Below are positions 9,480-54,599 of a stretch of 54,749 nucleotides of DNA, piece by piece. Below the pieces are notes generated by a model. That model made no database searches, had not been told where the DNA came from, and saw nothing but the letters and a program-made list of their open reading frames with translations. The position numbers were made by a program, and so were the translations under genes. The first letter of the stretch is position 1; each line of letters opens with the position of its first letter. The DNA is from Heterotrichella gracilis (taxonomy: Eukaryota; Sar; Xanthophyceae; Tribonematales; Xanthonemataceae), in contig JAULBX010025842.1 of NCBI GenBank assembly GCA_032358255.1, forward strand, positions 1-54,749, written 5' to 3'.

Positions 9480-12400
9480 TTACACTGGCAGCAGGATATC
9501 CACCCTTTGCTTGCCTCCCCCGCTGGCAGGGGCGCTGAACTGCCCCTTGTAGGTGACCCCGCCAACCACCACGATCCACCGGTATGTCCCATAGAAACCC
9601 CTAAAGCTTACCCTACCGCTGCCAAGGGCAGGTGCTGCACGCGCCACTTTCGTGCTCCAAGTGGTCGTCAGTAGGGTTTTTAGGGCCTTGGCTGCCAGTT
9701 TGGGCTTCCTGTCGGCTCCGATGATGCCCCCATTTTGCACCCAGTGCACCGGGTCGTAGAATCCCCAGAACCAAATCCCCTTTATGCTGGGATAGCTGAA
9801 CCACCAGCGCAGGTACCGGACCATATCTTCCGCCTGGGATGGGGACCAGTGGGGATTGCTCAGTGAACAGCTGGGGATAGAAATCACGGGCATGATCCTG
9901 GATACCCGCTGAACCACCAGCGCAGGTACCAGACCACCTTTTCCGCCTGGGGTGTGGAGCAATGGGGATTGCTCAGTAAACAGCTGTTGATAGGAAAAAT
10001 GGCAACATATCTTCGAATCCTCATACATATCCTAAATATGCCTTCTGAGGAATACAATAGATGATCTCTTAGAGTGTTTTGTAATTCCCTGTTGATGCCA
10101 GGGTGTGTGCACATTGTGAGCTGACCTGGATTAATGCGACAGACAAACCAGCAGTGCACGTGAAGCACTAAAATGCATGCGAGGCACCTTTTGTTGCTGC
10201 CTGGGATTGCTGACAACCACACAAAGTCACTGGGACGGTCCAAAATGTTTGCCAATGTGGGCACATCATGACCTACACATTGGGTTCTGGACTGGGTTGC
10301 AGATGGAGGGTTTTTGGTATCATTAAGTATGATCTCCATTTTCTTCCAGCGCCACCATGCCCAGAGCAGGTAGCATCTTGTCATGGGGGGTCATTAGGGT
10401 TTAGGAACCCGCACGCATGCATGCCTTCTGCTAGATCCGTTTGATGGGGGTCCACTAGGGTTAGGGTTTGCGGATGGGGACGGAGTGTGCTGGCCAGCTA
10501 GGGTACATTGTGCAGTATGGGGAACTCAGTGCTCGTCCTTATCGCTGCCCTTTTGGATGACTACTTTCCCTTGCCAATGCAACTGTGCATTAAAAGGTAG
10601 CAACGACCCTCTCATACTTTGGGGGTTGCCCTCTCACGCACCTGCGCTTGCTCCGTCAGCTCGTTGACTGGAAAGGAGCCTGCTGGCCAGGTGGTGTGCA
10701 GGTCAAACTCTGTGATGTACAGGTCCAATCCCAGGGCCGCAAGCTTGTTGAGCCTGCGGGGATGTAAAACAAAACTTGGGTGTGCAAACAAAACTCTGTG
10801 ATGTACATGTCCAATCCCAGGGAGGCAAGGTTTTTCTTGTCCCCACCTGTACAGCATCACGTCCCATCGTATCCACTTTGGCGCCGCCAGGTGCGCCTCT
10901 ATCCCCACGCAGGTGATGGGCACGTTGTCTTTCTGGAGGTCCCGCACTCGGCTGACCATGCCTTGCCATGCGGAGCCTGCAAAGCGGCAGGGATTTATGG
11001 TTCAGGGTTTAAAATTAGGGTTTAGAGCCTGCAAGGAGGTCATGCACTCGGCTGACCATGCCTTGCCATGCGGAGCCTGCAAGGCGGCAGAGGTTTAGGG
11101 TTTAGGGTTTAGGGTTTAGAGCCTGCAAGGGGGGCATTGGGTGGGAGAGGCGTGCATGTGGCTTTGTGCCCAAGTGTATCAGGGAGGTTGATCAGAAAGT
11201 GTATCAGAAGGCGGCCCATGACCCGCCAAGGGGACCCTTCATGTGGGGTGAGTGTGGGGGGTGGGTAGGTGGCACATGGTCGGACTGGAGGTCACGCACC
11301 AGGGGAACCATGCCCCGCTAGGAGGAGCCTTACGGTGTCCCATATATCATGTTTTTATTATTTAAATTCGAATAATTGAAAATAGAGTTTCTGATACAAG
11401 ATCACAAGATTGCAAAATTGCAAGATTACAACATAGTATAATTGTATACATGTATTATGCCCACAATTGCGGCCACCACCCACCCTCGATCAGGTCATAG
11501 TCGTTGAGGCACAGTTGCGCGGTGGGGTCCGCCTGCCTGGCCCATCTGAATGCATCCTTGAAGGTGGTGTCCCACAGATCGCAGCTGTTGAGGAGGTAGT
11601 TCTCGTGCAGAACCTCATTCCACACGTCGTACTGCTGGAAGTTGCCTACAGGGTTGCATTTGCTTGAAACAAAGATACTTAGATTAAAATGATAATAATC
11701 CAGACAGATTCGTACCCATGTATTTGTAAGTAAGAACTGGCCTGCAAATTAATTTGTTAACATATGCCCAAAAGATACGAACTCATGCATTCTAGTTCTC
11801 GCCTATTTTTTTTTAGTATCAAAAATATATGTGGTAAGGTGTGGAAAGTATGAGAAAAAAAATACGTATTTTAATTTTAGGGAAACGATTGGGTGGCCGC
11901 CCCAACCTCCATGCGACAGGGAATACATGCCAAGTATGTTTTTTCTGCAACTCTGCCCTACGGTGCGTTTCCAACTTCCGACCTGCGTAGTACGCCACAT
12001 CTCGCTGTATGTGCTTCTTGAGTGCTGCTGAGTAGTCCGCGCATGGCAGCAAGCGGGGCCAGTGCCGGCCGCGGCCGTTATCCTGGGACAGGGAGTTAGG
12101 CTTTAGGGTGAAGGGTGAAGGGTTCAGGGTGGTGCATGGCAGCAGGCGTGGCCAGTGCAGGCCGCAACCGTTATCCTAGGACAGGAGGTTCAGGGTTGAG
12201 GGTTCAGGGGGATGTAATCCATACCAGATACGAGCCTGAAAGCAGGGACAGGGAGGTTGAAGTACATACAAATTCTAGGCTTAGTTTTACCACCGGCATA
12301 ATACCCTAGGACCCACCACCGGCATGCACCATGGGGTATCAGGGTTTCAGGGTTTGGGGTTTCAACATGTGGGCTTGCTTCCCACGCACCCTGGTGAGCC

Positions 12401-15400
12401 ACTCCAGCGCGTGTCCCCGCACAGGCGCCAGGTGCTTACGCCTGGCCACGTCCATCATCTCATCCACAGCCGCCCTGCCGCTCACGTTCCCCGGCCTGGG
12501 CTCAAATTGCGTCCACTTGAAGGCGTTCTCGGGCACAATGGCGTTGAAATACTCCGCTGCAGGGTTGATGGATATATGAATACATATTATGGGATAAATA
12601 ACGATTTCAGACATCCGGAGTTTATTTAATATAGTTGCATTTCAGATGTCAGTTTAACAGAAGTACTAAATACTGAGCAGAAATGTGGATTCAAAGCAAG
12701 CACCTGAAGGTACAAATCAACAGCATGGTTACAAATGAGGAGCTGACAATAGATTGACGTGAGCTGTGGCAGAATGCGACCTTGAAAGGGGCCAGGGCAA
12801 GGGAACGAAGGGGTTTGGCAACGTGAATGAGAGGGGCATTGCCCTTCCATCTCTTGCGACCCTACCTGTGGCGCCGGTGTCCCAAATCCTGAACCCTAAA
12901 CCCTAACCCCCGAACCCAAAACGTACCCGTGGCGCCTATGTACCAGGGCCGGGTGGCGGCAGGGATCTTGCGCTGGTTGAACGCAGTCCCAAAGGGGAAA
13001 TCGTGGCGAATGAGCCTGACAGATGCTGACGTGGCAGTGGTGATGACTGCCTTGGATGATGCGCGGCGCAGGGTGATTGTTATGTCCCCCTTGCGGTGCC
13101 GCTCGATGCGGGAGTCGATGTTGTCTAACCAGGAGGGGTCTGAGGGGAGGTCCTCGTAGGTGATCTTGATGTTGTCCAGGGATACGGTGCCCTTGCACAA
13201 TCCCAAGGAAAACCTGCAAAAATGACAGTTGTTTGAACCGTCTCGATATTTCATGCGGGATGCAGTTGCAGACGAGGACCTCAGGTTGCGTGGGATCAAC
13301 AGGGGGTTCAAACAGTGCCAGGAAAGATCTCCGTGGCGCCGCATGTGCAAGGCTAATGCTGATTTGGCTGTATTGCTGGACTGCATGTAACTAATTAACC
13401 AACTAAACTATATCAACGGGGTCTGAGGAAGGTAATCCAGTGGAACAGCTGCCAGGTGGCACCCAGGTAGACGACCCGACATTAAAGTCGCATTACAATC
13501 AAAACCCAATCCATATCATTAAGTTTCATTAAACCAAAATAATAAAATAGAACCCACACCAATTCCCCACATCTAGACCGTGAGTTTGAAGTCGCGGAAG
13601 GCCCCCACCCCCCTAAACCCTAACCCTAAACCCCAAACCCTACACCCAACTGTACTGCAGCATCTTGTCAAAGTTGGTGATGAAGGTGGCCGAGGTGAAC
13701 AGCTGCCAGGTGGCACCCAGGGAGACTCCACACCAAACCCCCATTACATTGGGAGAATCCCGCCATTTGTTCATCCCCACTACAGTGGAAAACCACCGTT
13801 TCACTTCCCACCATGTTTTCCATCCCCAGGCCGATTGCTGGGCGTCAGGGCAGAACCCTCCCACCCCACCCTACCCGCAACCCACCTGTACTGCAGCGTC
13901 TTGTTGAAGTTGGTGATGAAGGTGGCTGAGGTGAAGAGCTGCCAGGTGGCAGTCAGGGAGAAGCTCTGGTTGCCAGCGTAGCGCTTGCTGGCGGCATCAT
14001 GCAGGGATAGGCCCACAGCGCAGGGTGTGCTGCTCTTGGCAGAAAACCGGGCAGTGTAGACCTGCGCCAGGGGGGAACGGGAGGGCTTTAGGGTTTCGAA
14101 GGATAGTTCAGACCCTAGGGGCGCATGTGCGAGGTATTGAAGTTAAGGGTACATCGCTCGTTGTTTGAGTGTCAGATGGGCGGGTAGGGTATATCGCGCG
14201 TTCCGAAAGGGTTGAATGCAGAGTGTAAATCGGCTGGCGAGCTCGGGGCCTACACAGATCCCCGCACATGTATTTTTCGCATGATGGGCGGTACTTGTGC
14301 GGGGATCCCCGTGACACAACCCATCACCCATGCACATGTTCAGCCACACAGCTTTTGCACCACATACCAGCCACCAACCACCCTATGGCACCCCACCCCA
14401 CAAGCAGTGACCCAAAGCCTGCACCACCTACATCACTTCCACCCATGCGTCACCGTGCTGCATGTCGGACCCCCATTTGGAATCAATGCTTTGACAAGCC
14501 TCGGCACGTCCAATTGGTGCCAGGCATACCCCTCAGTACTGTCCCCCTGGCTTGTTCAGCTGGGACAACCACTGTTACCAAATTTTGGTAAAAAATATTT
14601 TATTATCATTACACAAGATTTGTTCACTCACTATTCGTCATTCGCACTCAGAGAGACACCCCGGGCGCACAATACAGAATACAGAATACTTCCATTTCAA
14701 TAAAAATAATCACTCCCCAAGTTTGTGGATTTTCAGGATAAAAACCCCTAAACCCTATACTTCCAGGCTTACCCGTAAGCTGCTCATGGGCATGAAGGGC
14801 AGCGCCAGCTGCACGCTAGTGCTGTCGGTGCGTCCGCGTGTAGAGGTGGTGCTGGCTGCGTAGGGGGGGGAGCGGGCGGGGGTGGCGGTGGTGGTGGCGG
14901 TGGCTGTGGTGGGGTCCTGGAGGTATGTGGTGGTGCCCGCCCCACAGGCGGGGGAGGTGCATGTGGGCCGGTCGAAGTTTTGGTCGATCAGGACACCTGC
15001 GATTACAACCACGGCAACTGCATGGAAAGGTTTGTTTTGGGGAAAGGTGGGTTGGTATTTTACGGCATGTGTTCCACCTAGATAGCCACTTTTGGGTGAT
15101 TTGCGGTGGACATGTGCTGGGCGGGGGTGGGGGAGTGTGGTGCTGCCGTCCCTCCCTGTACCCTAAACAGTGGGTAGGAGGGAGGCATGTGTGTGCAGGA
15201 AGGGTCCTCAAAAGTTTGGGCCGATCAAGGTGCCTACATGCATTGGCCATGGGTTGAGGGGGAGTGAGGGTTTAGGGTTCAGGGTAGTGAGGGTTTACAA
15301 TAGTGAAGGTATAGAGTTCAGGTAGGGTTCAGGTGGGGTAGGCTTCAGCTTAACCTACCTGCACCCTAAACCCTAAACCCACCTTATACCTGACCCTACA

Positions 15401-18400
15401 CCCTACACCCACCTGGCCGCGTCACAAACGCCACAGGCGCCACCCTGGCAAGGCGCACATCATCCACGTACCAGAACCCTATACCCACAACCCACAACCC
15501 ACAACCCACAACCCACCTGGCCGCGTCACAAATGCCACAGGCGCCACCCTTGTCAGGCGCACATCATCCACGTAACTGAACCCTAAACCCTAAATCAGAA
15601 ACCCACCTGGTCGTGCCGCAAACGCCACATGCGCAATCCTTGCCAGGCGCACATCATCCACGAACACCGCCCCTGTGCACCCCCACACCTCCACCGCCAC
15701 GCGCGCCCAGAGGTGGGTGGCGGGGGTGTAGCCGGCGGCTGTGGCTGCCTTCCAGCGGGTGGTGGTGGGTATGGTGGTGGTGGCCAGGTACTGGGTGGTG
15801 CCTGGGACTGCGGCGTCCTGCCGTGGGTGCGGGGTGTGGGGTGTGGGGAGGGAGGGATACAAGGGGAGGTGAGTCGTGAAAATAATCAGTTTTCTCATAT
15901 TTTATATGCTCACATATATTTAAACGTTCATGTATTAACCCCCAAGCATATATCCAAGCATTTTAATTTTAAAACATATTCTTATGAAAGCAGATGCTCT
16001 GATTATTTTGGCAGTGATTTATGGTAAAAAATATATGAACGCATAAAGTAAATGCAGGCATGCTGCATCATTTTGCACCCACCTGCAGCGTGAGATACAC
16101 CATGCACCCTGGCTGCCCCCCCTTGACATACGCCTTAATGGCATATGTTGTGCCAGGTGTCAGCCCCACAGGGCCGCTGAGCAGCCTCACCCGGCCCTGG
16201 GGGGTTGGGGGGCCGGAGGTGGAGGGGGTGGCTGAGGCACCATAGCGCCCGCTGCGCGCCGCTGCTGGGTCAGCCACAGATGTGCGCGCTGCATATTATA
16301 TTATATTTTATTAAAGAGCATATTCTGTGTCAGTTAAGACTTAGAACACATGAGAGCAATCGATTGTGTTGCGAGAAAGAAATGAGGCATGTGGCGCTGT
16401 GCACCCAGCTTGCACTGAAGTGAGTTCCACCTGGTTTGGTCAAGAAAAGCTATCGTAGATTACTATTACACACCTTTCACCCCGTTTACACGCCACGTCA
16501 TTGGGATGGTGTCACAATAGTCGAAGAGCGCCTGGAAGGTGGTGGTGGGGGGCAAGGGCTTGCAGGGGGCGGGTGGGGGGTGGGGTGGCGGTGGCTTGGG
16601 CGGTGGCGGGTGTGGTGGGTGCGGTAGTGGGCGGGGTGGTGGGCGGCGTGGTGGTGGTGGGCGTCGGCGGGGTGGTGGTGGCGGGGGTCGGCGGTGTGGT
16701 GGTGGTGGCGGTGGGGTGGTGACACTCAGCGCCACCTCATCAAGATAAAATGTGCCTGCGCACCAATGCATGCATGTGTGAACACGACATGGGCACTATT
16801 ATTAATACCTGGTATCAGGGTTACCAACACCCCAATTGGTAAACAGTAATCAGAGTGCTAACAAAATACATTGATGTATGAAACGGTAATCAACTTAGTA
16901 TACCCTGGGTAATGTACATGAGATTAGTTGCCAGGCACATTACTAGGTGGGTCAGATTTGTGCCATGCCAGCATGGGCATACTGGCGCAAGGCAAAAAGG
17001 ACTGACAGCTCATCTTGCAGTGTCGCTGGAACGCTTGAAGTAAGCACGCAAGCAAAAAAAAATTTCTTCTTTTCTAACGGTGGTTTCCAATACCACTTTA
17101 CTAAAGTGGCATTGAAAACCACCGTAAAGACCACCTTTGCGCCCTGCATTGACAAAAAACCTTTGATAGTGACACATGGTCCTACCTTTTCTTGCCACTC
17201 CCATGTTCCATTGGTACTCAAATGTCCCCCCCACAGCTGCCATCCAAGTGAGGTTGAAAGTCCGCCATACGGTGGTGAGGGAGGGGTGTATGGATGCTTG
17301 TGGGGATGCGGTTGTTGTAGGTGGGGATAGCGCAACTTCGAAGCACTTTGGGCACTTTTGAGCCGCTTTGGCAGCAAAGGTGAGGGTGTATATGCGGCCT
17401 GGAGGGGAGGGCGCAGACTTGTCAGTTCCCGTTGGTTCACAGTTTCAGTGCAAGGCATGGCAACGGAAGATTTCTGAACCCTAAAGCCCAACCATACACA
17501 GCCTCAGCATGACAATTTGGCGCAGCATCAGGAGGGCCTTAGCAGCAAAGGTGAGCGTGCATATGCAGCGAGAACGGTAGGAAATTGAGAGGGTGAGGTC
17601 GTCAGGCTGTGCACTATAATACAATGCTATACGTCGCAATATGTGCAAAACCCTGAACCCCGAACACTGGCCCCTGCCCCTTGGACCCTGACGCAATGCA
17701 GTCCTTTGAATGTAATTGTGAGCTTTCTATGCAATGCCATTTCACCACGCTACCCGCCCACGCCAGGAGGATGTGAGAGACCCCGGGCTAGAGTTCAACC
17801 ACTCGACTAGCTGCTCATGTGAAAACCTTTGGAGCCCTGTGCGCACAGCAAGTACATAGGGTACGCAGCCAGAAGGTATAGGTGTTTTATGCTTTAGGGT
17901 CTGGGCTTTGCAGCCAGGTTACGGTTTAGGGTTTTGTAGTCTAGGGTCTGGGGTTTGCCACCAAGCAGTGAGAAAAACAGCCTGCGTCACATTACACAGC
18001 TACCTAGGGCGCACCTAGGGTAATTTTGGTGGGTTTTGTGCGCAGCTGCACCTGGCTGCTGGCAATCCCTGGGACCTCGATGGTCACCGAAAGCCCTCGG
18101 GACCCTCGTAGGGCACAACCGCTGGTGTAGTTAAAGGAGGCGCTGGCTGGCGTGTGCACGAGACTCGACAGCCCACCTGCACATGCCATGTATATCTTGT
18201 GTGTTCTGGGTTGCTGGGGGCTGTCCACAGGGTAGAAAGGGCAGCAGCCAACGTGCACCCGTGAGGTGGGCCCTATGGTCTATGGGAGGGACCTTTTTCA
18301 CCTGCACAGGCTGTATGGGCAGTGTCTCACCAATACAGTCTCACAGCAGAGCCAAGCACTCAATAAATTAATTTGAGCCTGTCCTGAGTGGTCCACCCCA

Positions 18401-20472: not shown

Positions 20473-21961
20473 ATGGTGCCTGTGGCCCGGCAAGGGGAGA
20501 GCGGTGACGCTAGGGCAGAGAGGAAGGCGCGCAAGAGGGAGGCCAAGGCGCTGCAGCGAGCCAAGCGGGAGGGCACTGCGGACGCCTCCACTGGGCAGAA
20601 GCAGTGCGACCTGTGCCAGGGATCCAAGGACCTGTTAATTCGGTGGGTGGCGATGTACTTGTTAAGGGTTAGGGCTTTAGGGTTTAGGGGTTGTGGGTAG
20701 AAATAGGAAGGGCAGAATGCAAGAGGGAGGCTCCAATAAAGAAGCCAATCGAGAGGGCACTGCGGAAGCCTGCACGGGCCAGAAGCAGTGCAACCAGGGT
20801 TTCAAAGACCTGCTCATACGGTGAGTGGGGAGGTGGTAACGTGGGGTTGCCATGTTGAGGGCTTAGGGGGAGAAGCAGGGTGGGTACGGCACGGTAAAAG
20901 GGAAGGCTCTCAAGGAAGGCTATCAACCCACGTATGTAACGGTAGAACGGAAGGCTCTCAAGGTTGACCCTAATACTTAAACCCTAAACAGGCGCTGCAG
21001 CGTGCCAACAGATCGGACATCATGAATTCATGGACCACCTGGTACGGGGGTTCAGGAACCCCCTTACAAGCAGTAGCACACATACCTGTGGGCGGATGGG
21101 CGACGCAGCACATGTGCATGCGCATGCTGGGTGTGCAGTGGTACGCATTGGTGAATGGTACCAACCCAGATATGCATTGGCGAGGATCAGTGCCCCAGGG
21201 TGTCTTCCATCTCAGGGATCAGGGGATACAGTGCGCATGTGTGTGGTGCGAAATTCGGTGCCACGGGGAACATGTAGACCAGGAAAAAACTTCTGCTGGA
21301 TGGCAAGTATGCATGGGATTGAGCTGTTATTGGCGGGGGGTGAGCATACTAATAAATTAGTATGAAATTAAATCCCTGGCTGTTGCATGAAGGTGCCAGG
21401 TGGACGCCAGCGCTAGGTGGCACATGGTGTGTGGCTCCTGCTGGCGGGGGGTGAGCGGTGGAGTGGCAGACGGGGATGCTGCGCATCCCCACTACAGGTA
21501 GGCAGCGCCCACATCAGTACGTTATGTTGGGTTTTCTTGAAATACTTTCTATTTCAATATAGAATAGTACAAAATAGTTTGTTGTGGGCATTTAGCAATA
21601 TGTTTGTGGACCATGCTTTTGGACTTGGTGGTACTGTGTGTGTGCCATTTGCTGAACCTTTGCGAAGGGTACTAAGCATGCCATTTTGGCTGAGGTGCCC
21701 TCGTGAGAGCCTTTTTGCTTGCAATTGTATCCCTGGCTGTGCATCGCGCTTCCCACCCGTTTTCTGGAAGAATGGAGCACTTTGCCATGGTCTCATAGCG
21801 TGGGCATATGTTGCAGGTATGGAGGCCTGTGGAAGAACCTCAACCGCCAGCTGCCACATGCCGCAACCACAGGTTATTCCGGCAACGCAGGCGCAGCAGC
21901 CAGTGACGCGCAGTGGGTGCCTGCTGACCTGGCGCCAGGCAGCGCTGACCCAACTTCGTGA
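20473..21961 (+). CDS. Small conserved green-lineage protein with CX2C motifs
   Basis: Exons are 20473-20642, 21393-21497 and 21817-21961 (420 nt, 139 aa) with phases 2, 2 and end. Residues 10-34 are a highly charged Arg/Lys/Ala helix (ERKARKREAKALQRAKREG). Next come CDLC (45-48), Cys58 and CGSC (70-73), a pattern able to hold a metal, then WHMVCGSCW, DGDAAHPHYRYGGLWKNL and a short variable tail. I recall this arrangement (helix, CX2C, YGGLWKN) from uncharacterised plant and algal proteins; no function is established to my knowledge. The start at 20473 is the first in-frame ATG, but an acceptor-like CAG just upstream means the true N-terminus may be longer. Intron 1 contains partial copies of exons 1 and 2. 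Confidence 0.75.
20706..20827 (+). repeat. degenerate copy of exon 1 end plus donor
   Basis: This aligns with 20530-20650: GAGGGCACTGCGGA, GGCCAGAAGCAGTGC and AAAGACCTGCTCATACGGTGAGTGG are recognisable. The spacing is about 184 bp. It contains deletions and is out of frame. A further fragment, GCGCTGCAGCGTGCCAA, lies near 20992. Confidence 0.8.
21258..21350 (+). repeat. degenerate copy of exon 2
   Basis: GTGCCA, TGGATGGCA and GGCGGGGGGTGAGC match exon 2 and flanks at 21393-21460, offset by about 111 bp. The copy lies upstream of exon 2 in intron 1. Confidence 0.65.
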
Positions 21962-39600: not shown

Positions 39601-42600
39601 AAAGTATTTCAGAAGCTTTAAAAATCCCTACCCTGCGCAGGTGGATCTGGGCCTACTGGGCATCCCCGCTCAACTACGCGATACGCGCAATATCGGTGAA
39701 CGAGTTCTCAGACTCGCGGTGGAGCAACCCCCCCACAGACTCCCCCGGCAGCACCACCCCTCTTGGGGTCCTCACCCTGCAGGCGCATGGCCTGCCCATC
39801 GACCACAATTGGGTGTGGATTGGCATTGCGGTGCTTGTGGGGTACTACGTGCTGTTCAATGTGGGGACCATGGCGGTGATGTCCTTCCTGAATCGTGAGT
39901 GATTGGGTGGTGGGCGGGCGGGTGGGGGGAGGGGAGGGAGTGCGGCGTGATGTGTAACCTGCACATGTACTGCACTCTGTGTACTTTTGTCAATGGGGGG
40001 TGATTGAAGTACGTTTCAATTCAATTCGTTTTTAATGCGTTTTATTTTTAAAAGCTGTGTAGGCATGTAGATACTTTTGTATGGCATTCAAATGTATGAA
40101 TTGAGATAGATTATTTCTAAATTGCAATTTAATGGTTAACCTTTGTTTACCTCTTCCTCCAGCGCTTGGCGGCGGCAGTTCCACAGTGCCTGAGGAGCTG
40201 CTTAAGGACATCGAGGAAAACAGAAAGGGGAGGGAAGGGGAGGCAGCAAACCACCTGGAGCTGCAAATCAGGGACCAGGAGGCGGCCACAGAGAATCCCA
40301 GTGATGAGAACGGTGCCAGAGCCAGTCCCCGGAATGTGACTGTGGACAGGGACAGTCCCAGGGATTCTGCGCACAGCGGGGATGGGGAGGGCAGCATCGG
40401 GGTTTCCAGGAGGCAGCTGTCAGTTGCGTCTGCAGGGGGGCATGGCGTGGACATTGAGCGGGGGAGGAGTGGGGGGGTGAGTGTCTGCATCCAAATGCGG
40501 CCTGGGTGCCAACGAAGTCTTGCTGACAATGGTGTTGTTGGCAGGCAAGGTTGCAGGGTTGCAGTAAAGTATCCTCTTTGGTTGCTATTAGGTACTCCCC
40601 TTGATGCTGGTGCCTTGGTGGCCCGGGTGATCATCCAGGGTGGCTCCCAAGATATGTGTATGGTGTATGTAGACTTTGAAGTTGGATGGGATTTATTTCA
40701 TGCCATGTACCTCTGGAGGAAGTTGTCGTGAAAGCCCATGCAACTGTCAATGTCCCTTGTTACCGTACAAGTCTCCTGGCCAACGTGGATGATCCTGAGT
40801 GAAGAAGCCAGGCCCCAAACCCTGTCATGGTGACTTCAGTCATTCAAATTTGAATTCAAATGCCTTTTGTGCCTTCTCACCATTTAGGTCCCAGGGGGAG
40901 ATATCACGCTCAAGCCTCGCGAGTCCCAGAGTGGGAACACCGCGCTGCCCTTTGAGCCCACCACCATGACCTTCAAGGATGTGTGGTACTCGGTGGATAT
41001 GCCGGGAGCAAAGGGGGTGCGCTGAGAAACCCTAACAAAACCCTGACAGCACCCTAGTCTTCCATCGTCACTGCCAGCACCATGACAACATGCATTCCTA
41101 CACTCTGCGCTGCACTCCCAGCCTTGCAGAGTGATCTGCACCCTAACATAGGGTTCTGGCACACGAAGGGCCAACCTCGATGCCATCAGCGAGCCAACAC
41201 AAAGACCCAACCCCAATTTCAAGCCCTGACCTAGGGTGCTGTAATCTTTTGCATGGCCCCCAAGCTTGAATGCTTCACGGCATCAGTGAACCAACATAAT
41301 ACACTGTCCCCTAAACCCTCCTCAAAACCCTGATATAGGGCTAACACCTGCCGCAGGACCCTCAGCTGGACCTGCTGCGCGGCATCAGTGAAAATAATAC
41401 ACTGCACCTCCAAACACCGCCAAACCCTAACCCAGGGTTTCAATTTCCTGCAGGGACCCCAGCTGGACCTGCTGCGCGGCATCAGCGGCGCCTTCCGGCC
41501 GCGTGTGCTGACCGCCCTCATGGGGGTGAGTGGGGCAGGCAAGACAACGCTCATGGACGTACTGGCGGGGCGCAAAACTGGTGCGTTGGGGGTGGGGTTG
41601 ATGTCTTGAATGTGCTGGCAGGGCACAAGACTGGTGGGTACATGCGGAAAGGTGCAATGGCGTGTACTACTTTGTATGCCGCTGACCTGCTGCAGTGCAT
41701 TGGAGAGGGTCCCTCGCATGGATGACTGGCCAAGGGGCGGGCGCCAGAGGAAAATAAATCAGATTTACGGGGTTCTACTTATTGGTGTAGTAGATTTATT
41801 ACATTAATTTACTACCTGATAATGGAATGCGTTATCTTACTACCAGTTTCAACTCACGACACCACTTGCGGCCTGTCCTGCACAATAAAAACCCCAACCC
41901 CACCCCTGCAGAACCCTCACCTCCCCTTCTGGCTGATTCCCAGGCGGCACCATCAAGGGGGACATGCGCCTCAGTGATTCAATGCTTATTAAACCCTTTC
42001 AAATCCTTGCAAAACCTTAACCTACCCTTTTGGCTGATTCTCAGGGGGCACCATCAAGGGGGACATGCGCCTCAACGGCCACCCCTTCGCCACATCATCC
42101 TTTGCGCGTGTGAGCGGGTATGTGGAACAGACAGACGTGCACGCGCCGCGCACCACCGTGGTCGAGGCGCTGCGCTTCAGTGCGATGCTGAGGCTGCCTG
42201 CGGGGGTGGGGCCCAAGGAGCGGGAGGCGTTTGTGCAGGAGGTGGGTATAGTGGGGGGGTGGGGGCTGGGGGTTCAGTGGATGACATCGATTGATCAATT
42301 GAGCATCACCGGGCAGTGGAGGCGCTGGTGGTGTTCATCGTTCATGTGCGGACCCATCATCCAACTAAATATAAAGTTGCGACCCTTACTTATACGGGTA
42401 CAGGGGCTCAATTTATCAATATCATCTCGTATTGTGTATATGTAGGACACAATATCCTGTACTCACCCTCGTGTTTTCCCTCCCCTGCAGATCATGTCCC
42501 TGGTTGAGCTCACCCCCCTGCGCACGGCCCTTGTGGGTCTGCCAGGTGGCACCGGCCTAAGTGTGGAGCAGCGCAAGCGCCTGACCATTGCAGTGGAGCT

Positions 42601-45600
42601 GGTGGCAAACCCTAGCGTGGTGTTCATGGACGAGCCAACATCAGGTGAAAACCCTAGACTAGATTTGGGGGCAGATGATAAGGGTCGCCGATCACTGGGA
42701 TGGCGGTGGTGGCAAACCCGAGCAGGGTTCTGATGGATGGGTCAACAGTAATTGGTGGCAAAGGTTACATATGCTAATAAAAATCAGTGAAATTTCTAGG
42801 TGTGGTGTGCAGGTGCCCTTAGCTCACCAGGCCGCGGTAGCTGCACACCTTGTAGCACAATATCCCATGAGCCCCCCCCAAAAATAAACTTCAGACCCCT
42901 TTGTGTGCAGGCCTGGATGCGCGTGCCGCTGCCATTGTGATGCGCGCTGTGCGCAACATTGCCAACAGCAACCGCACCCTGGTGGCCACTATTCACCAGC
43001 CGTCCATCGACATATTCGAGGTAGGTATCGTATCATGTGCCGCCACTGTAGGAGTGAATTATCTAGTCGTCCACTGGTTGCAAATAAGGTCACTTACCTT
43101 TCCTCAACCAGTCTTTTTTCAAACAGCTGCTGCTTACATGGAGGAGGCGTGGTGTACTGCAGCCCCCCCTGGGGTAAACTCACAGTCCAAAAATGACAAA
43201 TTCTTGATAATTTAAATATACTTCCTTTGGGCAGACATTTGTTCCTCCCCTTTTACTCGCCTGACCACTCGCCTTCCCTCCCTTGCAGTCCTTCGACGAG
43301 CTCCTTCTCCTTCAGAGGGGAGGCACCGTGATCTACAGCGGCCCCCTGGGGGTGGATTCCCAGTCCATGATTGAGTACTTTGAGTCCATCCCGCGGATTG
43401 CACGCATCAAGGATGGGGAGAACCCTGCTGCCTGGATGCTGGACGTGACGTCCCCGGCTCAGGAGGCCAAGGGGGGGATGAGCTTTGCAGACATCTACCG
43501 GGAGAGCAAGCTGGCAAAGTGCGTGGAGGAACCCTAAATCCTCCTGTAACCCTTTACAAGCCCTGCCCTGGTTGATTATCAAGGGGGAATCTGCAAGATG
43601 GCACAATTTGAAAAAATAAAAAACTAATTGACCCAATTTATGATGCGCTGGATCTACCCAAATCTAATGCAGAATCCTACACTCTGATCAATTGTTAATA
43701 AGGCACAGTTTCTTTTCAGATTTTCTGATTGCACACTTCCAATCCCAGGGACCAAGCCCAGCAGGTGGACCATTTCTCCCAGCCCGCCCCTGGCACCTCC
43801 CCCCCCACCTTCCCCACCCGCCACGCGCGCACCGTGGTTGACCAGTACCGCGCGCTGCTGTCCCGCAACTGGGCCACCTACTGGCGCTCCCCCCACTACA
43901 CCCTGGTGCGGGCGGTGTACACTACTGTGGTGGGGCTGGTGTTTGGCAGCCTGTACTGGGACAAGGGCATGCAGAGGTGAGAGAACACCCTTAAATCTAC
44001 TTTCCACTGTGACGCCATGGCATGCTGGTATGTTGTAAAGTTGTATCCAGCAAGTTGGTATTTGGGAGCCTGCATTGAGACAAGGGCATGCAGAGGTGAG
44101 GGGTTGAAGGAACGTTCCAAGCAGGACCTGTATACGGCCACACAAATTTCAGCCCAGGATATTGCACCCTGGACTCTGGTGCAAGCAGTCTTGACACCAT
44201 AGTGGTGGGGTGGGGTATTCGGGATGTCTGAAACTGGGACAAGGGCCGAGGGGAAGAGACTAGTGAACTATTGGGTTGTTGGCCATTACTTTTATGTTGT
44301 GGGCGTGCACAAGGTTATAATACAATCCAGTTGGCTCTAATTCAATTGGCAACACCACCCCTACCTGAAGCTTACCTATGTGACCACCCCTGGAGCACAG
44401 CTAGAACTGATTACAGTCCTAAGCCATTACTACACCTACTTACGGCGTATTATCAAGTTACGTACGTTGATTACAAGCACTAGTGCTGATAACTTGCATT
44501 GCCATATAGCTACTCCAGGTCAGTCATGCTCTGGAGTACGGGATGCCCTGTTGCACAATACCGTATGCTGTCACAAGTTGCCATGTCATGCTACCCTGAT
44601 TGCCCCTGCTGTCTAGAAGCCTGTCTCCGATTTGGCTCAGTCTTCTCAAATCCAGTCAACATCGAATCCCTGGTCCCCAACCTCCATCCCCGCACCATGC
44701 TTGCTTAGAAATGGTGAACAAACCTCACACTTGAAACCACTACAAGTCTACCCAGGTGGAGGCCAACCTCGTGTGCCTGTACTGCCCAGCAGGCTGGGTA
44801 GTACTCAGGTTGTCGTGGTAGGACTGCCTGTGCATACTGTTGGCATGTTGTCGACATGATGTCCAGACAGTTGTTTCACTACAACTTGAGCTCCACCTTG
44901 ACCAATGGGCGGTACAGGCAACTTTGGCTAGAACCTGGTGAAACTGTTTACCGCGATAAAGCAAATGTGCTTGACAGATGAGCCAACTTCAAGTGCACTA
45001 CCTGTGGCTGCAGGGAACTCCAGTCCAATCAAATCAATCCATTCCAATCCAGTCTGTACGTAATTTCCCAAGAAATGGCCCTTTCCCTGCAGGTCCATCC
45101 AGGCTGGCCAATTGACTATTCCAATCCGCATACAAATCAATGCAATTCAATTCAATCCAATACAGTCTAATACAATCCAATCTGTATGTAATGACGTGAG
45201 CATCATCATTTGAAACTTGGGCCTATCCTATAAAACCCTAAACCCTACACTGCAGGTCCACCCAGGCCGACCTGCCCAACCTGATGGGCGCCCTCTACGC
45301 CACCACGCTCTTCTTGTTGAATCCTAAACCCTCGACCCTTAGCCTATACCCTAACCCGCAGGTCCACCCAGGCCGACCTGCTCAACCTCATGGGTGCCCT
45401 CTACGCCACCACCCTCTTCCTGGGCATATCAAACTCATCCACCGTGCAGCCCCTGGTGGGGCTGGAGCGCTCGGTGATGTACCGCGAAAGGGGTGCGGGC
45501 ATGTACGGTGCAGGCGCCTACGCCCTTGCGCAGCAGACTGTTGAGATCCCCTACCTGCTGGTGCAGAGCCTGCTGTACAGCGGGATCACCTACTCCATGA

Positions 45601-46635
45601 TCCAGTTTGAGTGGACCGCAGGTGGGTATGGGGGTGGGTTGGGATTGGCTTGGGAACTCTGTAATGCAAAGGTAGTGGTTTGGGGGGTAATGTGTCCTTG
45701 CACAGTGTATCAGCTCACCCACCGTGGGGTGACTTCCCTTCTCCTTTTCCCTGTCTTACCATCCCTCCAGGCATAGCCACTTGATGCGCCCAAAACCTGA
45801 CCAATCAAGCTTGTTGCCCACTGCCATTGTGAAATTACTTGCAGGTCAAATTCTGTAAAATGTCTTTTATCATGTCCACATTTAAGTTCTGGGTATCTGA
45901 CCACATTTCTACCCCTTGCCCGCAGCCAAGTTCTTCTGGTACCTGTGCTACCTGTTCCTCACCCTGGCCTATTTCACATACTACGGCATGGCGGCGGTGG
46001 CGCTGTCGCCATCAGTGCAGCTGGCAGCGGTGCTCAGCTCCGGGTTTTACGGACTGTGGAACCTGTTCTCGGGATTCCTCATCCCGCGCCCGGTACGTGG
46101 CCAAAACCTTAGACCCGAAACACACCCTACACCCTATTTCCTAGACTTTAATCTGGCTCCAGGGTTCGGTCACGTACGGACCCTGAAATCGCTCCCCTGG
46201 GTACCTTGGGACAATGGTAATTTCCATACCTCACAGGCGCTACGTGCGCATGTTGAACCTTGTGTACTGAGGGTTACCCCGGGATTGCACTGCCAGGCAT
46301 CCACGCTCCCAAGCCAATGGCCTCAACCTTACAACCTATCTTAACACCCCTTGCCCCCCTTGCAGGCTATGCCAGGCTGGTGGGTATGGTACTATTACCT
46401 CAACCCGGTGGCATGGACCCTGTACGGCCTCATCTCCTCTCAGCTGGGTGACGTGACCACAGCACTGACTACCACAGCAGGGACTACCACCACAGTCAAG
46501 GAGTTCTTGCAGTCTTACTTTGGTTTTGAGTATCGCTACCGCATCTTCTCTGCCGTGATTCTGCTAGGGTTTGTCATCACGTTTAGGGTTGTGGCGGCGC
46601 TGGGGCTCAAGTACCTCAACTTCCAGAAGAGGTAG
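30625..46635 (+). CDS. Full-size PDR-type ABC transporter (ABCG subfamily)
   Basis: Exons are 30625-30724, 31018-31164, 31487-31628, 32004-32124, 33018-33101, 33748-33852, 34287-34446, 35059-35280, 35678-35796, 36071-36277, 36659-36916, 37217-37375, 37722-37873, 38896-39072, 39641-39894, 40163-40476, 40888-41016, 41454-41580, 42045-42241, 42491-42644, 42911-43020, 43289-43518, 43749-43976, 45362-45621, 45926-46092 and 46366-46635: 4593 nt, 1530 aa, all phases matching. NBD1 has Walker [10 protein letters not shown] (Lys212), signature VSGGQRKR (350-357) and Walker B TLFLDE (Asp374). TMD1 follows ([30 protein letters not shown]). An acidic linker spans 803-905. NBD2 has GVSGAGKTT (Lys980), a degenerate signature LSVEQ (1081-1085) and [10 protein letters not shown]2 ends LKYLNFQKR. 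The reverse NBD-TMD order is that of plant and fungal PDR pumps, which export lipophilic compounds or hormones across the plasma membrane. The substrate is not predictable. Confidence 0.95.
31686..31728 (+). repeat. copy of PDR exon 3 end
   Basis: GACAATGAGAAGCTGCTCACCAAGATG repeats the exon 3 text near 31585-31611 at a spacing of 105 bp. It lies downstream of the donor. The copy carries a TAG directly after AAGATG. Confidence 0.85.
33117..33147 (+). repeat. telomere-like G-strand run after PDR exon 5 donor
   Basis: GGTTAGGGCTTAGGGCTTAGGGGTTAGGG starts 15 bases after the GTGGGT donor, in the same strand as the gene. Confidence 0.85.
34060..34667 (+). repeat. two partial copies flanking PDR exon 7
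   Basis: The stretch 34060-34135 resembles the exon 7 start (TACTATGGCAAGAGCTTGAAC against TACAATGGCAAGAACTTCCAC; spacing 229). The stretch 34612-34667 resembles its end plus the GTGAG donor (GGGAGACCTTGGACTTTGCAGC; spacing 218). The real exon, 34287-34446, lies between them. Confidence 0.8.
36229..36546 (+). repeat. four tandem units of PDR exon 10 end plus donor
   Basis: The ACCAGYCGGTRGGG junction occurs at 36271, 36336, 36432 and 36528, with steps of 65, 96 and 96 bp. Units 1, 3 and 4 keep CTGGTGGTCACCTCGCGCAAGG-like exon text. All carry AAACCCTAA or GGGTTT motifs. The last copy still has an apparently usable GTAGGG donor. Confidence 0.92.
37385..37412 (+). repeat. telomere-like C-strand run after PDR exon 12
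   Basis: AAACCCTACACCCTACACCC lies about 10 bases after the GTGCGT donor. This is an exception to the G-strand-after-donor trend. Confidence 0.75.
38769..38823 (+). repeat. copy of PDR exon 14 start plus acceptor
   Basis: GCAGGTCCTCCATCTCCATC through GTGGTGCACCAGATTG mirrors 38892-38940 (GCAGGTTCTTCATCTACACC through GTGATGCACCAGATG) at a spacing of 123 bp. Confidence 0.88.
39465..39535 (+). repeat. copy of PDR exon 15 start plus acceptor
   Basis: TGCGCAGGTGGATCTGGGCC, TCCCCGTTCAACTAC and GCAGTATCGGT match 39634-39705. The spacing is 163 bp and it lies upstream of the real acceptor. Confidence 0.88.
41250..41391 (+). repeat. two copies of PDR exon 18 start
   Basis: CCGCAGGACCCTCAGCTGGA with CTGCTGCGCGGCATCAGTG at 41350-41391 repeats 41451-41490 at about 97 bp. 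A more decayed version (CCCCAAGCTTGAATGCTTCACGGCATCAGTG) lies about 100 bp earlier at 41250-41295. Confidence 0.85.
41912..41974 (+). repeat. copy of PDR exon 19 start plus acceptor
   Basis: CTTCTGGCTGATTCCCAGGC and GGCACCATCAAGGGGGACATGCGCCTCA match 42025-42075 almost exactly at a spacing of 101 bp. Both the intron side and the exon side are duplicated. Confidence 0.92.
44057..44255 (+). repeat. two copies of PDR exon 23 end plus donor
   Basis: ACAAGGGCATGCAGAGGTGAG recurs at 44080 (original 43961, step 119). A weaker CTGGGACAAGGGCC copy occurs at about 44235 (step about 159). Both lie downstream of the real donor. Confidence 0.85.
45256..45313 (+). repeat. near-perfect 58-bp copy of PDR exon 24 start with intact acceptor
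   Basis: CAGGTCCACCCAGGCCGACC through GCCACCACGCTCTTC matches 45362-45419 with only a few changes and a 106-bp offset. The copy is preceded by AAAACCCTAAACCCTACACTGCAG, a usable acceptor. Joining here would shift frame before exon 24. Confidence 0.92.
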
Positions 46636-49842: not shown

Positions 49843-50844
49843 CCGTGGCCACCACCACCACAGGAGCTCCCAGTCTAGACTCTTCTGGCATGGCGATGTC
49901 TGGGTCCCATATGGACCCTATGTAGGAATTAGGCAAAGCAGGCGCCTGGCTATGTTGTAATACTGCAGTGGCTGGCTGGCTATGTTATAATACTGCGCCT
50001 ACCTATGTTATAAAACTGCAAGTTGGTTGCAATTAGTTCCATTTGGTTGTGGGCAGTGCGTTTCAGCTAGGCAGGCAGGCAGACAACAGGTATTGTTTTG
50101 TTGGGTAGCATGCCAGATCCCTATTTTTCACAGTGTTTAGACGACTCTTTTTCCTTGTGAGTACGCGGCTTTTTTGAATTGATTCAATTAAATTCAGTTA
50201 AATTTCATTATTTTGATCCATGAATTTACCCATGACCAACCCCATCGAGGTACTCGTATGAACACCCAGCAGTGACCTTCCATCTTACCTCTTACCTAGG
50301 CAATGAGGCAATATTTATACCAGTTCCGTCCCCTTTTGAGATGCACCGTGGCAGAAGCCACCCTCTCCAAGTATTGAGACGCCCCGTCCCATTCTGTTCA
50401 AATTTAGGCACCCCCACCACTGTGCCACATATCTCAACCAGCTTTTAGTTATATTGACTTTGGTATGGAAGGCTTGAACGTCCACAACATTTTACTCATT
50501 GCCACACCATGTGCAAGGGTTCATCCTAGGGTTTTCGCCCACTGCCAGTGACTGACATGTAGCCATGGCTGCATCTTTTCCTTTGATGCCTTCCTAGTAT
50601 ACTAGACGGAAGCTTTGCTACAGAAAGGTCAGTTCTGGCACTATGAGTGTCCATCCTTGTGCATACAGGCGATCCTCACCGACGGATTGGGTGCCCCCCG
50701 GGACCACCATCAAAGTGGCAGGTGCAGTGAAGCTGCACGCAAACCTTGCAAGAAACACTCGGGCTCACTGAGAACGCTTTAGCTCCATCCCAACACCAGC
50801 TTCAGCTCTTTTCACCCAAGCTTTTACCGTCTGAACTGTGCACC
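49843..50844. other. intergenic, no gene
   Basis: This contains a short tandem duplication (GGCTATGTTRTAATACTGC repeated around 49949-50015) and AT-rich sequence near 50165-50215. It is presumably the glycoprotein 3' end and the sugar-kinase promoter. No exon-like open frame is present. Confidence 0.5.
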
Positions 50845-53800
50845 ATGTCAGCAACATTGACCGCACGCCAGGCGGGGCATGGTGCCCTCGGCATCCAGCC
50901 GCATCGGCCAGTCAGGTTGGGGCATAGCCATGAGTGCGTGCGGCCATCAAAGCGAGGAGTTCAGCTACAGATCCGCGCATCAGGGTCTGTACCCAGCAGT
51001 GGGTCGTACGTAGTCAGCATCGGGGAAGCCCTGTTCGGTAGGTGGCAGCATGTGGCACAGTTTGCATGCATGCACATGGCTTGTTGCTTGTCTGTGCACT
51101 CTGCTTTTCACCTGCTCGCTAGGACACCAGATCAGCCTTATCCATGAGGTTAGGTTGGACTTTATAAGGCAGCCCCGCGCTGCCTGATCAGCAGTAACCA
51201 CACGCATGCATATACACATGCCGTGCTTTGTGCCACACGTCAGGTTTTGCATGCCAAGTCTCTGCTCACAGTTGTACATACCTCAACTTGCACAGCCTTG
51301 GATTCAAATTCAAAACGAATCACAATCTTACATGGCTCTTCCCTGGTTTCCTTGCAGATTGCTTGGCAGACCAGAAGGGGTTGCCCAAAGAAGAGGTGCA
51401 GTCTTGGTACGTAGGGCATATGTTGGAGTGCACATTGATTACCCCCCCTCCACGGGACCTATTTCGTACCCCTGCCAGTGTACGCATGATTATGAAAAAC
51501 ATGATCACATCTGACCCGTCATGGACCACCATGTTGCGCACCCCCCACCTTCCTTCCGCATCTCCACTGAAGGGAAAAAGTAGCATACATGCAAGCACAC
51601 CGCTCCCTCGCACCCACTCACCACTACCACCTCCACCACCGTAGGACCCCCTACCCCGGCGGCGCCCCCGCCAACGTCGCCAGCGCACTGGCCAAGCTTG
51701 GCACCCGCAGCGTGCTGGTGACTGCACTGGGTACAGACAGCCTAGGGGACCAAATGACGGAGCTGCTGGAAGGTAAAATTGTACCCCTCCCTCCCGTCCC
51801 CCCTCCGTCATGTCAGAAGAAGGAGAATAAGCACAGACATAATAAAGTACAGGACTTGCCGGTAGTTAGGTAGGTCCAGGCATTTAGGGAGCTAGGCATC
51901 CGCAGCCTGCTGGTGGGTGCACTGGGCACAGACAGCCTAGGGGGATCAAATGACGGAGCTGAAATAGAAATAGAATAATAATGTACCCGTCGCGGCTCAG
52001 AAAGCCATGGACTACACGCTGGGACAGGGGCAGCATCCCTGCAGCGGAGGTGTGCAGAGCAATGTGTGCTCACATGCAAAAAAACAGTTCTCAAGAAACG
52101 AAAATGATCCCGGAAAAAAGAGTGTACCCCCCCCCCCCCCCCGCCAGTAAAACCCTAGGAGCAAAACCCTATTCAATTCCCAGTAAAACCCTAAAAACAA
52201 CCCCCCAACTTTTAGCAACCTCAAAACTCTCCCAACACCCAAACTGCACAATAAAAATTCCAGTAGAGGAGACCAACCAGAGGGCTGCAAGAAAACCAGT
52301 TTGCAAAAAAAGAGGATAATTCCAGAAAACATATGCTAAAACCCCAGTAAAACCCTAAGACAAAAATATTATAAAACCCCAACAAGTTAAAACTCTCCCA
52401 AACCCCAGAGTGCACACTGAAATGCCTACTACTGGAGACCAGCCAGAACGCTGCTTAACCAGAAGCATTAAGCCACGGAGCTGCTGCAAGGTGAGAAACG
52501 GGCCAGCCCCGGGGAAAAGATGAATACATTACACTGTGTAATACATGGATAATTTATGAACAATAAATTAGGGTTAAACACTAGATTTCATCCATATTCA
52601 TCTTGGATGTGCGCATGAGGCCAGCCCCTGTGGTGACTTCCTTTTCTTCTTTCTTCCTGAGCAAATTTTACGATGAGGGCGGGGTCCGGAATTGGAGTTG
52701 AGAACCTCAGGAAAATCTGTTAACCTGTCATCTTTAGCCTTGGGCATTGCAACTGAAAAGATTTCCTTGGCAGCAGGCACGGGAGTTGATTTGTCGCACC
52801 TGCAGCGCCTGCCCCGCCCCACCCGTGACGTGCTAGTGACGCGCTCCCTTGAGGGGGACAGGGAGTTCTCGGGATTTGGCGCAGCGCAGTCACATGAGTA
52901 TGCGGACTGCTTCATAGATGCTGCGCGCGTGCCGCAGGATGTGGTCAAGGTGGGTGGCTGGTGGTGGGTGGGTGGTGGTGGGTGGTGGTCATGGGAGTGG
53001 ATGGTGTGCATGGGGTGGCCAAGGCTGATAATGGTGGGTGGTGACGGATGCAACATAGGTTTCTTGTTTGGGTTTGGTGCCGCGCATTCTAGGTTTGTTT
53101 GAGCTGGCTTTAAGGTGGTTAGGTGACTAGGTACAGGTGGCAGGTTTGCCGATACCATCTAACGCATCCCCATCCCTGTATTGGGAAATGTGCGCCTCCA
53201 TGACAGGTGGTTACCCTAAGGGTTGCCCGTCGCAAACCTGCATGGTAACAAACAACAGAGCAATGGTGAACAGCTTGGCGCGCTGTGTTAGAACCATTGG
53301 TAACTGCTAATTTTCTTCTCCTTTTTCTCCGCAGTCCGCTGCGGCCCTTGTGACCGGCACCCTAGGGTTGGCATGCCCTGAAACCGCCAAGGCCCTGCGA
53401 ACAGCGGTGGAGGCTGCGCAAGGGGGGAGCTGCGCGGTGAGTGTGGATAGGGAAGGGGGTGAGAGGAGGGCCAGTGGGTGGGAATAAGATGGGAACGGAA
53501 TGCACAGGTGCTCAGGAGCAGCTGCGGAGGCATTAAACGGGGCCAGCTGCGCGGTGGTTGGGGCAGGGTCGGATGGAATGGTCGGAGCAGGGTGTGCGAG
53601 TCGGAGCCACATGCCTTTCTTAGAGGCACCACAAGGGCCACTGCACCAAACCCCAATTCCCAACCCAAAACAAAACCCTTGTACCACCCCACCAGCTCCA
53701 CCCGTCCCTTGCATTTACCTCATTCCCCTTTAAGACAACGCCCCTCACTTCCTTACCCGAACGCTTCCTGCAGCCAATCTAAGCTCCACCCCAGGATCAC

Positions 53801-54599
53801 CCAACCCTAGCCCTGACAATGCCATGTCCCTGCTATCGCAGTTCCTGTGCGATGTCAACTGGCGCCCGGTGTTTTGGCCTGACCCTTCGGCCGCACTGGA
53901 TGTGATCCGGCCCTATGCCCTCCAGGCAGCCATCCTGAAAGTGACAGATGAGGAGGCGGAGTGGATGGTGGGGGTGGCGGCAGGGGAGGCGCTGGGGCAC
54001 CCGGAAAAGGTAGGAGGAATTGTAGATATTGAATGAGGGTAAAGGAATATTACAGGTTTACAAAATGCACACTGAGTCTGACTGATGAGGAGGCGGAGTG
54101 GATGGTGGGGGTGGGGGCAGCAAAGGCGCTGTAGAACCCGGAAAGACAGGAGGAATCTAGGTATTGAAAAATGCACACTGCATGTGAGTGTTGAGGAGGC
54201 AGAGTGGATGGTTTGCATTGTTCATTTGTCGTGCAATGTTATTCGTTATATATATATTCATTGTAAATGTAACTTCTGTAATTTCATGGGCAGATGCAGG
54301 CGTTAAAGCATTGGTAAAGCATTGGGTTTTTTGAATCGAAGTAGGGTTCCAACATTAAGTGTAATGCCTTTTTAGTCTTTTGGTCCTTGGTGCAGGTACT
54401 TGCCCTGTGCCCCAATACCAGGGGGGTGTTGGTGTCTGCGGGGGAGAAGGGGTCAGCCTACGCCTTCAAGGGGGCGGATGGAAAGGTGATGACGGGGAAT
54501 GTGCCTGTGCTGGATGTGGGTGTGGTGGACACAACCGGCGCGGGCGATGCCTACCTGGCAGGGTTCCTGCACCGTATGGTGGAGGCGGGCGGGCTGGAG
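50845..54599 (+). CDS. pfkB-family carbohydrate kinase, plastid-type leader (continues beyond right edge)
   Basis: Exons are 50845-51037, 51358-51406, 51645-51772, 52777-52949, 53335-53436, 53842-54009 and 54396-54599 (1017 nt, 339 codons, all in phase). The C-terminal exon or exons are off the window. Residues 1-45 are Ser/Arg/Ala/Gln-rich and lack acidic residues apart from one Glu, like a transit peptide. Then come VVSIGEALFDCLAD, the first pfkB signature TPYPGGAPANVASALAKLG (82-100), DVNWRPVFWPDP, and the second signature DTTGAGDAYLAGF with catalytic Asp322. This fits plant and cyanobacterial fructokinase-like ribokinase-fold enzymes that phosphorylate a sugar from ATP; the exact substrate is not decided. 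Exon 4 has a NAGNAG acceptor. Introns 3, 5 and 6 contain partial exon copies. Confidence 0.9.
51885..51962 (+). repeat. copy of pfkB exon 3 end
   Basis: AGCTAGGCATCCGCAGCCTG through GACAGCCTAGGGGGATCAAATGACGGAGCTG matches 51690-51768 at a spacing of 194 bp, with a 1-nt insertion. A shorter echo (CGGAGCTGCTGCAAGGTGAG) lies near 52476. Confidence 0.88.
53527..53567 (+). repeat. degenerate copy of pfkB exon 5 end plus donor
   Basis: GAGGCATTAAACGGGGCCAGCTGCGCGGTGG resembles GAGGCTGCGCAAGGGGGGAGCTGCGCGGTGA at 53410-53440, about 116 bp upstream. Confidence 0.7.
54074..54215 (+). repeat. two copies of pfkB exon 6 end
   Basis: GATGAGGAGGCGGAGTGGATGG occurs in exon 6 at 53947, in copy 1 at 54084 (step 137) and, diverged, in copy 2 at about 54189 (step 105). 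Copy 1 carries an in-frame TAG and a lost donor. Confidence 0.9.

Follow-up and report, generated by a model that had tools for sequence, protein, structure and literature searches.

The origin and growth of intron sequence is an old open question, and few introns have been caught in the act of forming. The nearest precedent for the observations reported here is an intron of the potato RdRp gene, born from a duplicate that crossed an intron-exon boundary (PMC4974935). We analyzed a contig of the alga Heterotrichella gracilis (JAULBX010025842.1, C334:1-54749), referred to as the window and 54,749 bp long, in which exon edges recur together with their splice sites as degenerate direct copies in the adjacent introns. 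As in the potato RdRp intron and the intron of vertebrate ATP2A1, splice sites are supplied by local duplication. Those two cases are single new introns, whereas here many junctions of one genome are affected, mostly by lengthening, and the copies are accompanied by filler and telomeric repeats.

Small tandem duplications are also formed in mouse and human cells, where CST and Pol alpha-primase fill in 3' overhangs (PMC8355091). They resemble the copies in the alga in being direct and are made at overhang breaks by machinery used at telomeres. Neither a link to exon-intron junctions nor telomeric filler, both seen here, appears in the available text of that paper. Telomere words can further be inserted at breaks, giving rise to interstitial telomeric sequences (ITSs) with a target-site duplication at 6 of 130 rodent and 4 of 25 primate loci (PMC2246262), and at 3 of 66 horse loci plus two complex ones (PMC7215372). 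Mammalian ITSs and the words described here share the insertion at breaks, which are presumed in our case, with a target-site duplication at a minority of the mammalian loci. Human ITSs are intronic at an approximately random rate (31%), whereas in the alga the words are placed preferentially near splice-site-like sequence and go along with intron growth.

Diverse eukaryotes can also gain many introns through introner elements (PMC12730881), and tandem duplication and break repair are among the seven routes of intron gain listed in a review (PMC3443670). The string "telomer-" is absent from the available parts of that review and of a second one (PMC3488318). Our searches of the open-licence literature returned no description joining duplication, telomeric filler and splice junctions in introns. 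Introners form dispersed families, whereas the copies found in the window match their own neighbor. In plants, small tandem duplications reportedly arise from paired nicks.

Results

Exon edges recur as local direct copies

Self-comparison of the window with blastn (E<=1e-3) returned 32 same-strand matches, 30 of which lie less than 2 kb apart at offsets of 63-257 bp. We added 25 stretches of 10 kb, spread by hand across the larger contigs of the 68.5-Mb assembly (903 contigs). Five bacterial-looking stretches were excluded, L009-L011 before counting and L029 and L030 after it; the first count therefore covers 22 loci plus the window, and the final nuclear sample 20 loci plus the window (254,749 bp). 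In the 22 loci plus the window 80 direct matches are near, defined as less than 700 bp apart, and 11 are far. Only 21 matches were obtained on the opposite strand: 17 self-palindromes, one match at 696 bp and three far ones. Three dinucleotide-preserving shuffles of the same sequence gave no match. Subtracting 6 matches of L030 and 18 of low complexity left 56 retained matches, 28 of them in the window and the rest in 10 of the 20 other nuclear loci. Together the self-comparison, the wider sample and the shuffles bear out what a sequence-only reading of the window had claimed, namely that introns carry degenerate copies of the adjacent exon edge with its splice site.

The offsets of the 56 retained matches are below 80 bp in 4 cases, 80-125 bp in 23, 126-260 bp in 26 and above 260 bp in 3. 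Fifty-three fall at 63-257 bp, within the tens to few hundreds of bp that characterize small tandem duplications from break repair, and the direct orientation and local placement agree with such duplications as well. BLAST self-comparison is insensitive at offsets of 50 bp or less, recovering 0 of 180 planted 30-50-bp repeats, and short offsets were covered by a second, gapless scan of every diagonal from 12 to 600 bp. It found 53 pairs, 50 of them at 12-259 bp (5 at 12-59, 6 at 60-79, 18 at 80-119 and 21 at 120-259 bp, with 3 beyond) and none in one shuffle of the sequence. A favored range of offsets exists, with a peak at 80-119 bp and a long tail to 257 bp; a sharp 100-bp unit does not. The single preferred unit of about 100 bp that had been proposed is thus replaced by a broad peak, and only 16 of the 56 offsets, rather than more than half, lie at 86-106 bp. 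The idea that longer offsets represent two units with the middle one lost is supported by a partial middle copy still present at 36.2-36.5 kb, but not in general. Most copy pairs are divided by filler instead of abutting directly.

Two of the 32 matches in the window and 11 of the 91 direct matches in the sample are distant. Judged from these comparisons, which were made within each locus and not genome-wide, dispersed transposons are an unlikely source of the copies. Given the almost purely direct orientation we rejected inverted or cDNA-type insertions.

The duplications of three genes lie at exon-intron junctions

The exons of three genes of the window, with 37 introns in total, were fixed by a custom spliced protein-to-DNA aligner. 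A PDR-type ABCG transporter gene (31062-46632, + strand) has 25 exons and 24 introns of 230-1385 bp in the alignment to a profile of 24 homologues; its homologues come from land plants, streptophyte algae, Myrmecia and Coccomyxa. For a GH10 xylanase gene region (9700-14061, - strand; 11 homologous matches, including one MMETSP transcript and two volvocine algae) 8 exons and 7 introns were used; two weak upstream exons were discarded and the end of the last exon was set by hand. A pfkB-family kinase gene (50992-54596, + strand) has 7 exons and 6 introns, with homologues in Parachlorella, Chlorella, others and many cyanobacteria. Taken together, the homologues of the three genes suggest that the DNA is that of a green alga.

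In 18 of the 21 retained matches in these genes one member is an exon edge and the other lies in the neighboring intron; 8 of these pairs are donor-side and 10 acceptor-side. The other three matches are third copies of exon-edge units. With one triplicate merged this gives 17 independent events in 16 of the 37 introns, all 17 at exon edges. At a lower threshold 15 of 19 near matches in the PDR gene touch an exon. The inserted lengths total about 2.5 kb of 17.0 kb of intron, in agreement with the earlier claim that local tandem duplication across splice junctions makes introns longer.

We compared this placement with a null model based on survival, in which duplications of 60-120-bp units occur anywhere, are lost from exons and decay faster if both copies are intronic. 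The model expects 30-50% of the events at junctions, against 17 of 17 observed (P 1.6e-9 to 7.4e-6). Counting the third copies against junctions gives 17 of 20 (P at worst 1.3e-3); a dropped pair at 52223-52454 stands outside these counts. An earlier and simpler null, replaced by this stricter one, expected 27-45 pure-intron matches per 18.

In the PDR gene donor-side duplications are found at 31585-31723 (offset 105 bp, exon 31487-31628), at 34396-34669 (218 bp, 93%) and at 43937-44100 (119 bp, exon 43749-43976); in the latter two the match stops at GTGAG in both copies. A donor-side triplicate at 36227-36548 has offsets of 161, 257 and 96 bp (exon 36071-36277). Acceptor-side duplications of this gene lie at 34055-34349 (229 bp, exon 34287-34446), 38756-38937 (122 bp, exon 38896-39072), 39457-39697 (165 bp, exon 39641-39894), 41271-41485 (102 bp, exon 41454-41580), 41904-42074 (101 bp, exon 42045-42241) and 45237-45422 (106 bp, exon 45362-45621), the last with telomere-like filler at 45317-45342. 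The copies at 31585-31723, 39457-39697 and 43937-44100 hold a stop codon. The kinase gene has two donor-side duplications, at 51695-51961 (195 bp, exon 51645-51772) and at 53942-54212 (53942-54033 and 54079-54168, 137 bp, exon 53842-54009), where a third partial copy extends to 54212.

On the - strand, acceptor-side duplications of the xylanase gene occupy 9795-9996 (9795-9883 and 9908-9996, offset 113 bp, 86.5%), 10935-11137 (10935-11043 and 11035-11137, 100 bp), with TTTAGGG-like repeats within the units, and 12041-12212 (12041-12118 and 12134-12212, 93 bp), with telomere-like filler. Donor-side copies at 13644-13725 and 13880-13961 are offset by 236 bp, and a third partial copy at 13424-13497 extends the array to 13424-13961. 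The region 10693-10846 comprises a 93-bp intron (10754-10846) and the start of the downstream exon: 57 bp of the intron (10779-10835; 61%) copy 10693-10749 at an offset of 86 bp.

The inner copies decay neutrally

The exon-covered part of the 18 pairs contains 108 differences, which divide into 43 synonymous changes, 62 non-synonymous changes and 3 stops. Free drift of the intron copy alongside a constrained exon would give 44.4 synonymous changes, and wholly random change 28.0. With gap columns omitted, exon parts show 108 substitutions in 905 bp and intron parts 74 in 432 bp, a ratio of 1.44; by our own estimate, a single event that copied both parts at the same time would give a ratio of about 1.6. 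The inner copies behave as neutrally decaying dead sequence, and not as spare exons or assembly errors; as this pattern of differences is that of free sequence, we rejected both live alternative exons and an assembly artefact. Many copies retain an intact-looking splice site.

Telomere repeats accompany splice-like words and copies

The contigs C70 and C140 open with perfect CCCTAAA arrays, and TTTAGGG is therefore the telomere repeat of this genome. The 14-mer (TTTAGGG)2 occurs 5,629 times genome-wide, overlaps and terminal arrays included, and the reversed word 5 times. Among the 100 matches listed, none lies less than 800 bp from a contig start. The inserted words are identical to the telomere repeat of the organism, as in ITS insertion by telomerase.

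The donor-like word AGGTRNG is found within 12 bp upstream of 297 G-strand and 183 C-strand words, compared with about 81 expected from random noncoding places of the sample. The G-strand word after a donor-like site therefore stands at 3.7 times its baseline, and a scrambled GAGTRNG at 1.4 times (49 against 34). The acceptor-like TGCAGG follows within 12 bp of 137 C-strand words, with about 74 expected. A spacer of 0-2 bp was counted by eye in 28 of 100 listed places with AGGTRNG and a word, which is too weak to use.

The introns of the three genes contain 167 telomeric 7-mers; shuffled sequence gives 21 and the reversed motif 37. Thirteen of 17 G-strand clusters are placed in the 5' half of the intron. 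Introns with duplications contain 14.7 telomeric 7-mers per kb and the others 3.7 (P 0.0024 within length strata); at least one such 7-mer is present in 14 of the 16 introns having duplications and in 10 of the 21 lacking them.

Ab initio gene models were used for the other loci. They were trained on the PDR, GH10 and pfkB genes, of which they exactly recover 19 of 25, 5 of 8 and 3 of 7 exons, respectively. By these models predicted introns, with 68% of the bases, hold 89 of 94 telomeric stretches of at least 10 bp; two more are exonic and three lie in other sequence. Complete predicted introns hold 51 of the stretches; 20 of these have their start no more than 40 bp from the donor and 10 their end no more than 40 bp from the acceptor, where 7.5 are expected in each case. 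A telomeric stretch is present in 13 of 47 duplication clusters, compared with 5.9 at random places of the same loci (P 0.004). The telomeric repeat separates two copies at L016, L031 and L033 of the spread sample and at L002, L037 and L039, which came from non-random pattern searches. Pfam assigns a raffinose synthase domain to L039 and, below cut-off (26 versus 29.3 bits), a class II tRNA synthetase core to L016, whose duplicated exon we take to be that of a seryl-tRNA synthetase. The orientation of the filler is uninformative, because extension of a single end can yield either orientation. This link of CCCTAAA/TTTAGGG stretches to the copies goes beyond what the sequence-only reading had observed.

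Further duplications and other features

Three more arrays of the window belong to exons or genes without a homology model. Three tandem donor-type copies at 15369-15665 (- strand, offsets 106 and 194 bp) each carry a telomere-like repeat on the intron side, and a donor with (TTTAGGG)2 is found at 15364-15384 (- strand). Copies at 20559-20656 and 20743-20834 (20559-20834, + strand) each end in a donor-like site and are accompanied by telomere-like filler. At 27671-28001 (+ strand) tandem units of about 95 bp, starting CAGGAGGTGAG, are read as exon end plus donor. Elsewhere in the assembly, donor- or acceptor-like words and telomeric repeats recur at 112-bp spacing at C23:72995-73249 and at 95-bp spacing at C308:5571-5691; these may represent additional tandem units with splice sites.

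The four longest PDR introns contain imperfect palindromes of 128-259 bp (32332-32557, 33376-33503, 38312-38570 and 44774-44920). They resemble foldback or MITE-type (miniature inverted-repeat transposable element) sequences and are a second contributor to intron length. At L033:4683-5535, copies of 91-93% identity lie 368-396 bp apart with segments between them that seem, by eye, to be inverted; this is probably an unrelated repeat element. Between 48829 and 49876 of the window long open frames run across low-complexity Pro/Thr/His-rich repeats with periods of 36-69 bp.

In nuclear-looking loci the GC content is 0.50-0.60, and CpG is depleted to roughly one half to two thirds of the expected level. 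The contigs of the excluded stretches, C1 (894 kb), C222 and C331, show GC 0.33-0.38, undepleted CpG (0.83-1.20) and long open frames. They look bacterial and are perhaps symbionts or contaminants.

Discussion

Filler separates direct copies, units measure from tens of bp to about 110 bp, and some scars bear the telomere repeat; these features match the repair of staggered breaks. We consider it probable that break repair near splice sites, in which staggered breaks are filled in and rejoined, sometimes with telomerase-type additions, lengthens the introns of this alga. A staggered break at or near an exon-intron junction would leave nicked ends overlapping by about 30-110 bp. Filling in of both ends and their joining, often with filler, would double the exon edge and its splice site. 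The outermost splice site would stay in use and the protein would remain unchanged, while the inner copy would drift neutrally. Some 3' ends would gain TTTAGGG repeats before joining, and repeated rounds could produce introns of several hundred bp. The data suggest that telomerase acts at junction breaks, and by analogy the CST-primase fill-in machinery may do so too; fill-in and telomeric insertion would then meet at exon-intron junctions. A possible reason for their meeting there is that the strand that would turn its 3' end to the break is rich in G at the ends of introns and might prime telomerase. The orientation counts agree with such priming, but selection on splicing would give an identical bias. 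The origin by end repair that had been suggested before is in keeping with the direct-only orientation, with the filler between many copies and with the telomeric repeats at some of them, and stands to that extent.

Several observations weigh against this proposal. By the ab initio models outside the three genes, 26 of 35 duplications are at junctions, where 21.2 are expected, and by an overlap criterion 16 of 41, a count including the 6 matches of L030, where 12.6 are expected. Nine of the 35 lie off predicted junctions, for example L021 8901-9325 and L033 4683-5535. In the window the low-complexity pair 52223-52454 (76%, set aside) and a 16-bp-period repeat at 38139-38182 are wholly intronic. 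Thirty-four of the 47 duplication clusters have no exact telomeric stretch, C-strand clusters of the three genes show no 5' or 3' lean (18 of 36), TGCAGG follows the G-strand word less often than the baseline predicts (50 versus about 74) and the scrambled donor control is itself raised 1.4-fold. The junction specificity claimed by the sequence-only reading is thus clear in the three homology-modelled genes and weak elsewhere. Because the enrichment outside these genes is weak, genome-wide targeting of the duplications is not established.

Survival alone might produce the same picture. Duplications would then arise everywhere, those inside exons would be purged and those at junctions or in introns would persist, the slow decay of the exon copy easing detection. 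This accounts for the absence of duplications inside exons and for the neutral decay of the inner copies, and the weak enrichment over random placement outside the three genes favors it. Even after allowing for slower exon decay it predicts 30-50% of the retained events at junctions, however, instead of 17 of 17, and it leaves the 3.7-fold excess of telomeric words after donor-like sites unexplained. We regard it as a rather unlikely account.

About equally unlikely, in our judgement, is that the telomeric repeats came first. Interstitial TTTAGGG or G-rich runs by splice sites would be fragile or form quadruplexes, and the resulting breaks would lead to duplications with no need of telomerase at each event. 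Introns with duplications are indeed fourfold richer in telomeric words, G runs follow several donors and interstitial telomeric sequences are break-prone according to PMC11626172. This order of events does not account for the source of the 5,629 words or for the clusters lacking an exact telomeric stretch, and in several units (L002, L016, L031, L039) the telomeric repeat is the filler between the copies.

It is very doubtful that selection for splicing explains the data. Under this view telomere-like words would provide a G-rich setting for donors, or a branch point with its pyrimidine tract, and the copies would be retained as alternative sites. The preference of G-strand words for donors (297 versus 183) and of C-strand words for acceptors (137 versus 50) would be expected, as would the intact-looking splice sites of many copies. 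The inner copies, however, are without protein constraint, 3 of their 108 differences being stops, and a preference for G- or C-rich context should not give a ratio of 5,629 to 5 between the exact and the reversed word. It is extremely improbable that we are dealing with alternative exons, with introner-type transposons or with assembly errors. Foldback elements also sit in large PDR introns and tandem repeats of this size can trouble assemblers, but within the window the copies match their own neighbor (2 of 32 matches being distant), they lie in one orientation, some hold stops, and their differences are those of free sequence, unlike assembly errors or live exons.

Most events lengthen an existing intron rather than create one. 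Under the proposed repair of junction breaks, a unit containing AG|GT may nevertheless create a new intron. Two putative gained introns are candidates on sequence grounds: the 93-bp xylanase intron at 10754-10846, and L004:1883-2263, which would lie at a proto-splice site. In the latter, a unit with CAG|GTG in its interior is repeated several times with CCCTAAA-type filler between the copies, and L004 has no family or structure match. That telomerase and fill-in repair of junction breaks are the main engine of intron growth and a source of new introns in this alga is a tentative proposition, to which we give somewhat less than even credence.

Many of the junctions, involving 16 of the 37 introns of the three genes, carry decaying exon-edge copies that lend themselves to dating and counting, and some of these scars are marked by telomeric words. 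It thus becomes possible to measure, in a single small genome, how fast, where and by what machinery introns grow. If break repair with telomerase-type additions does lengthen the introns, telomerase activity would be tied to gene structure. If it is moreover the main engine of their growth, introns in this alga would largely be the scars of junction-targeted break repair.

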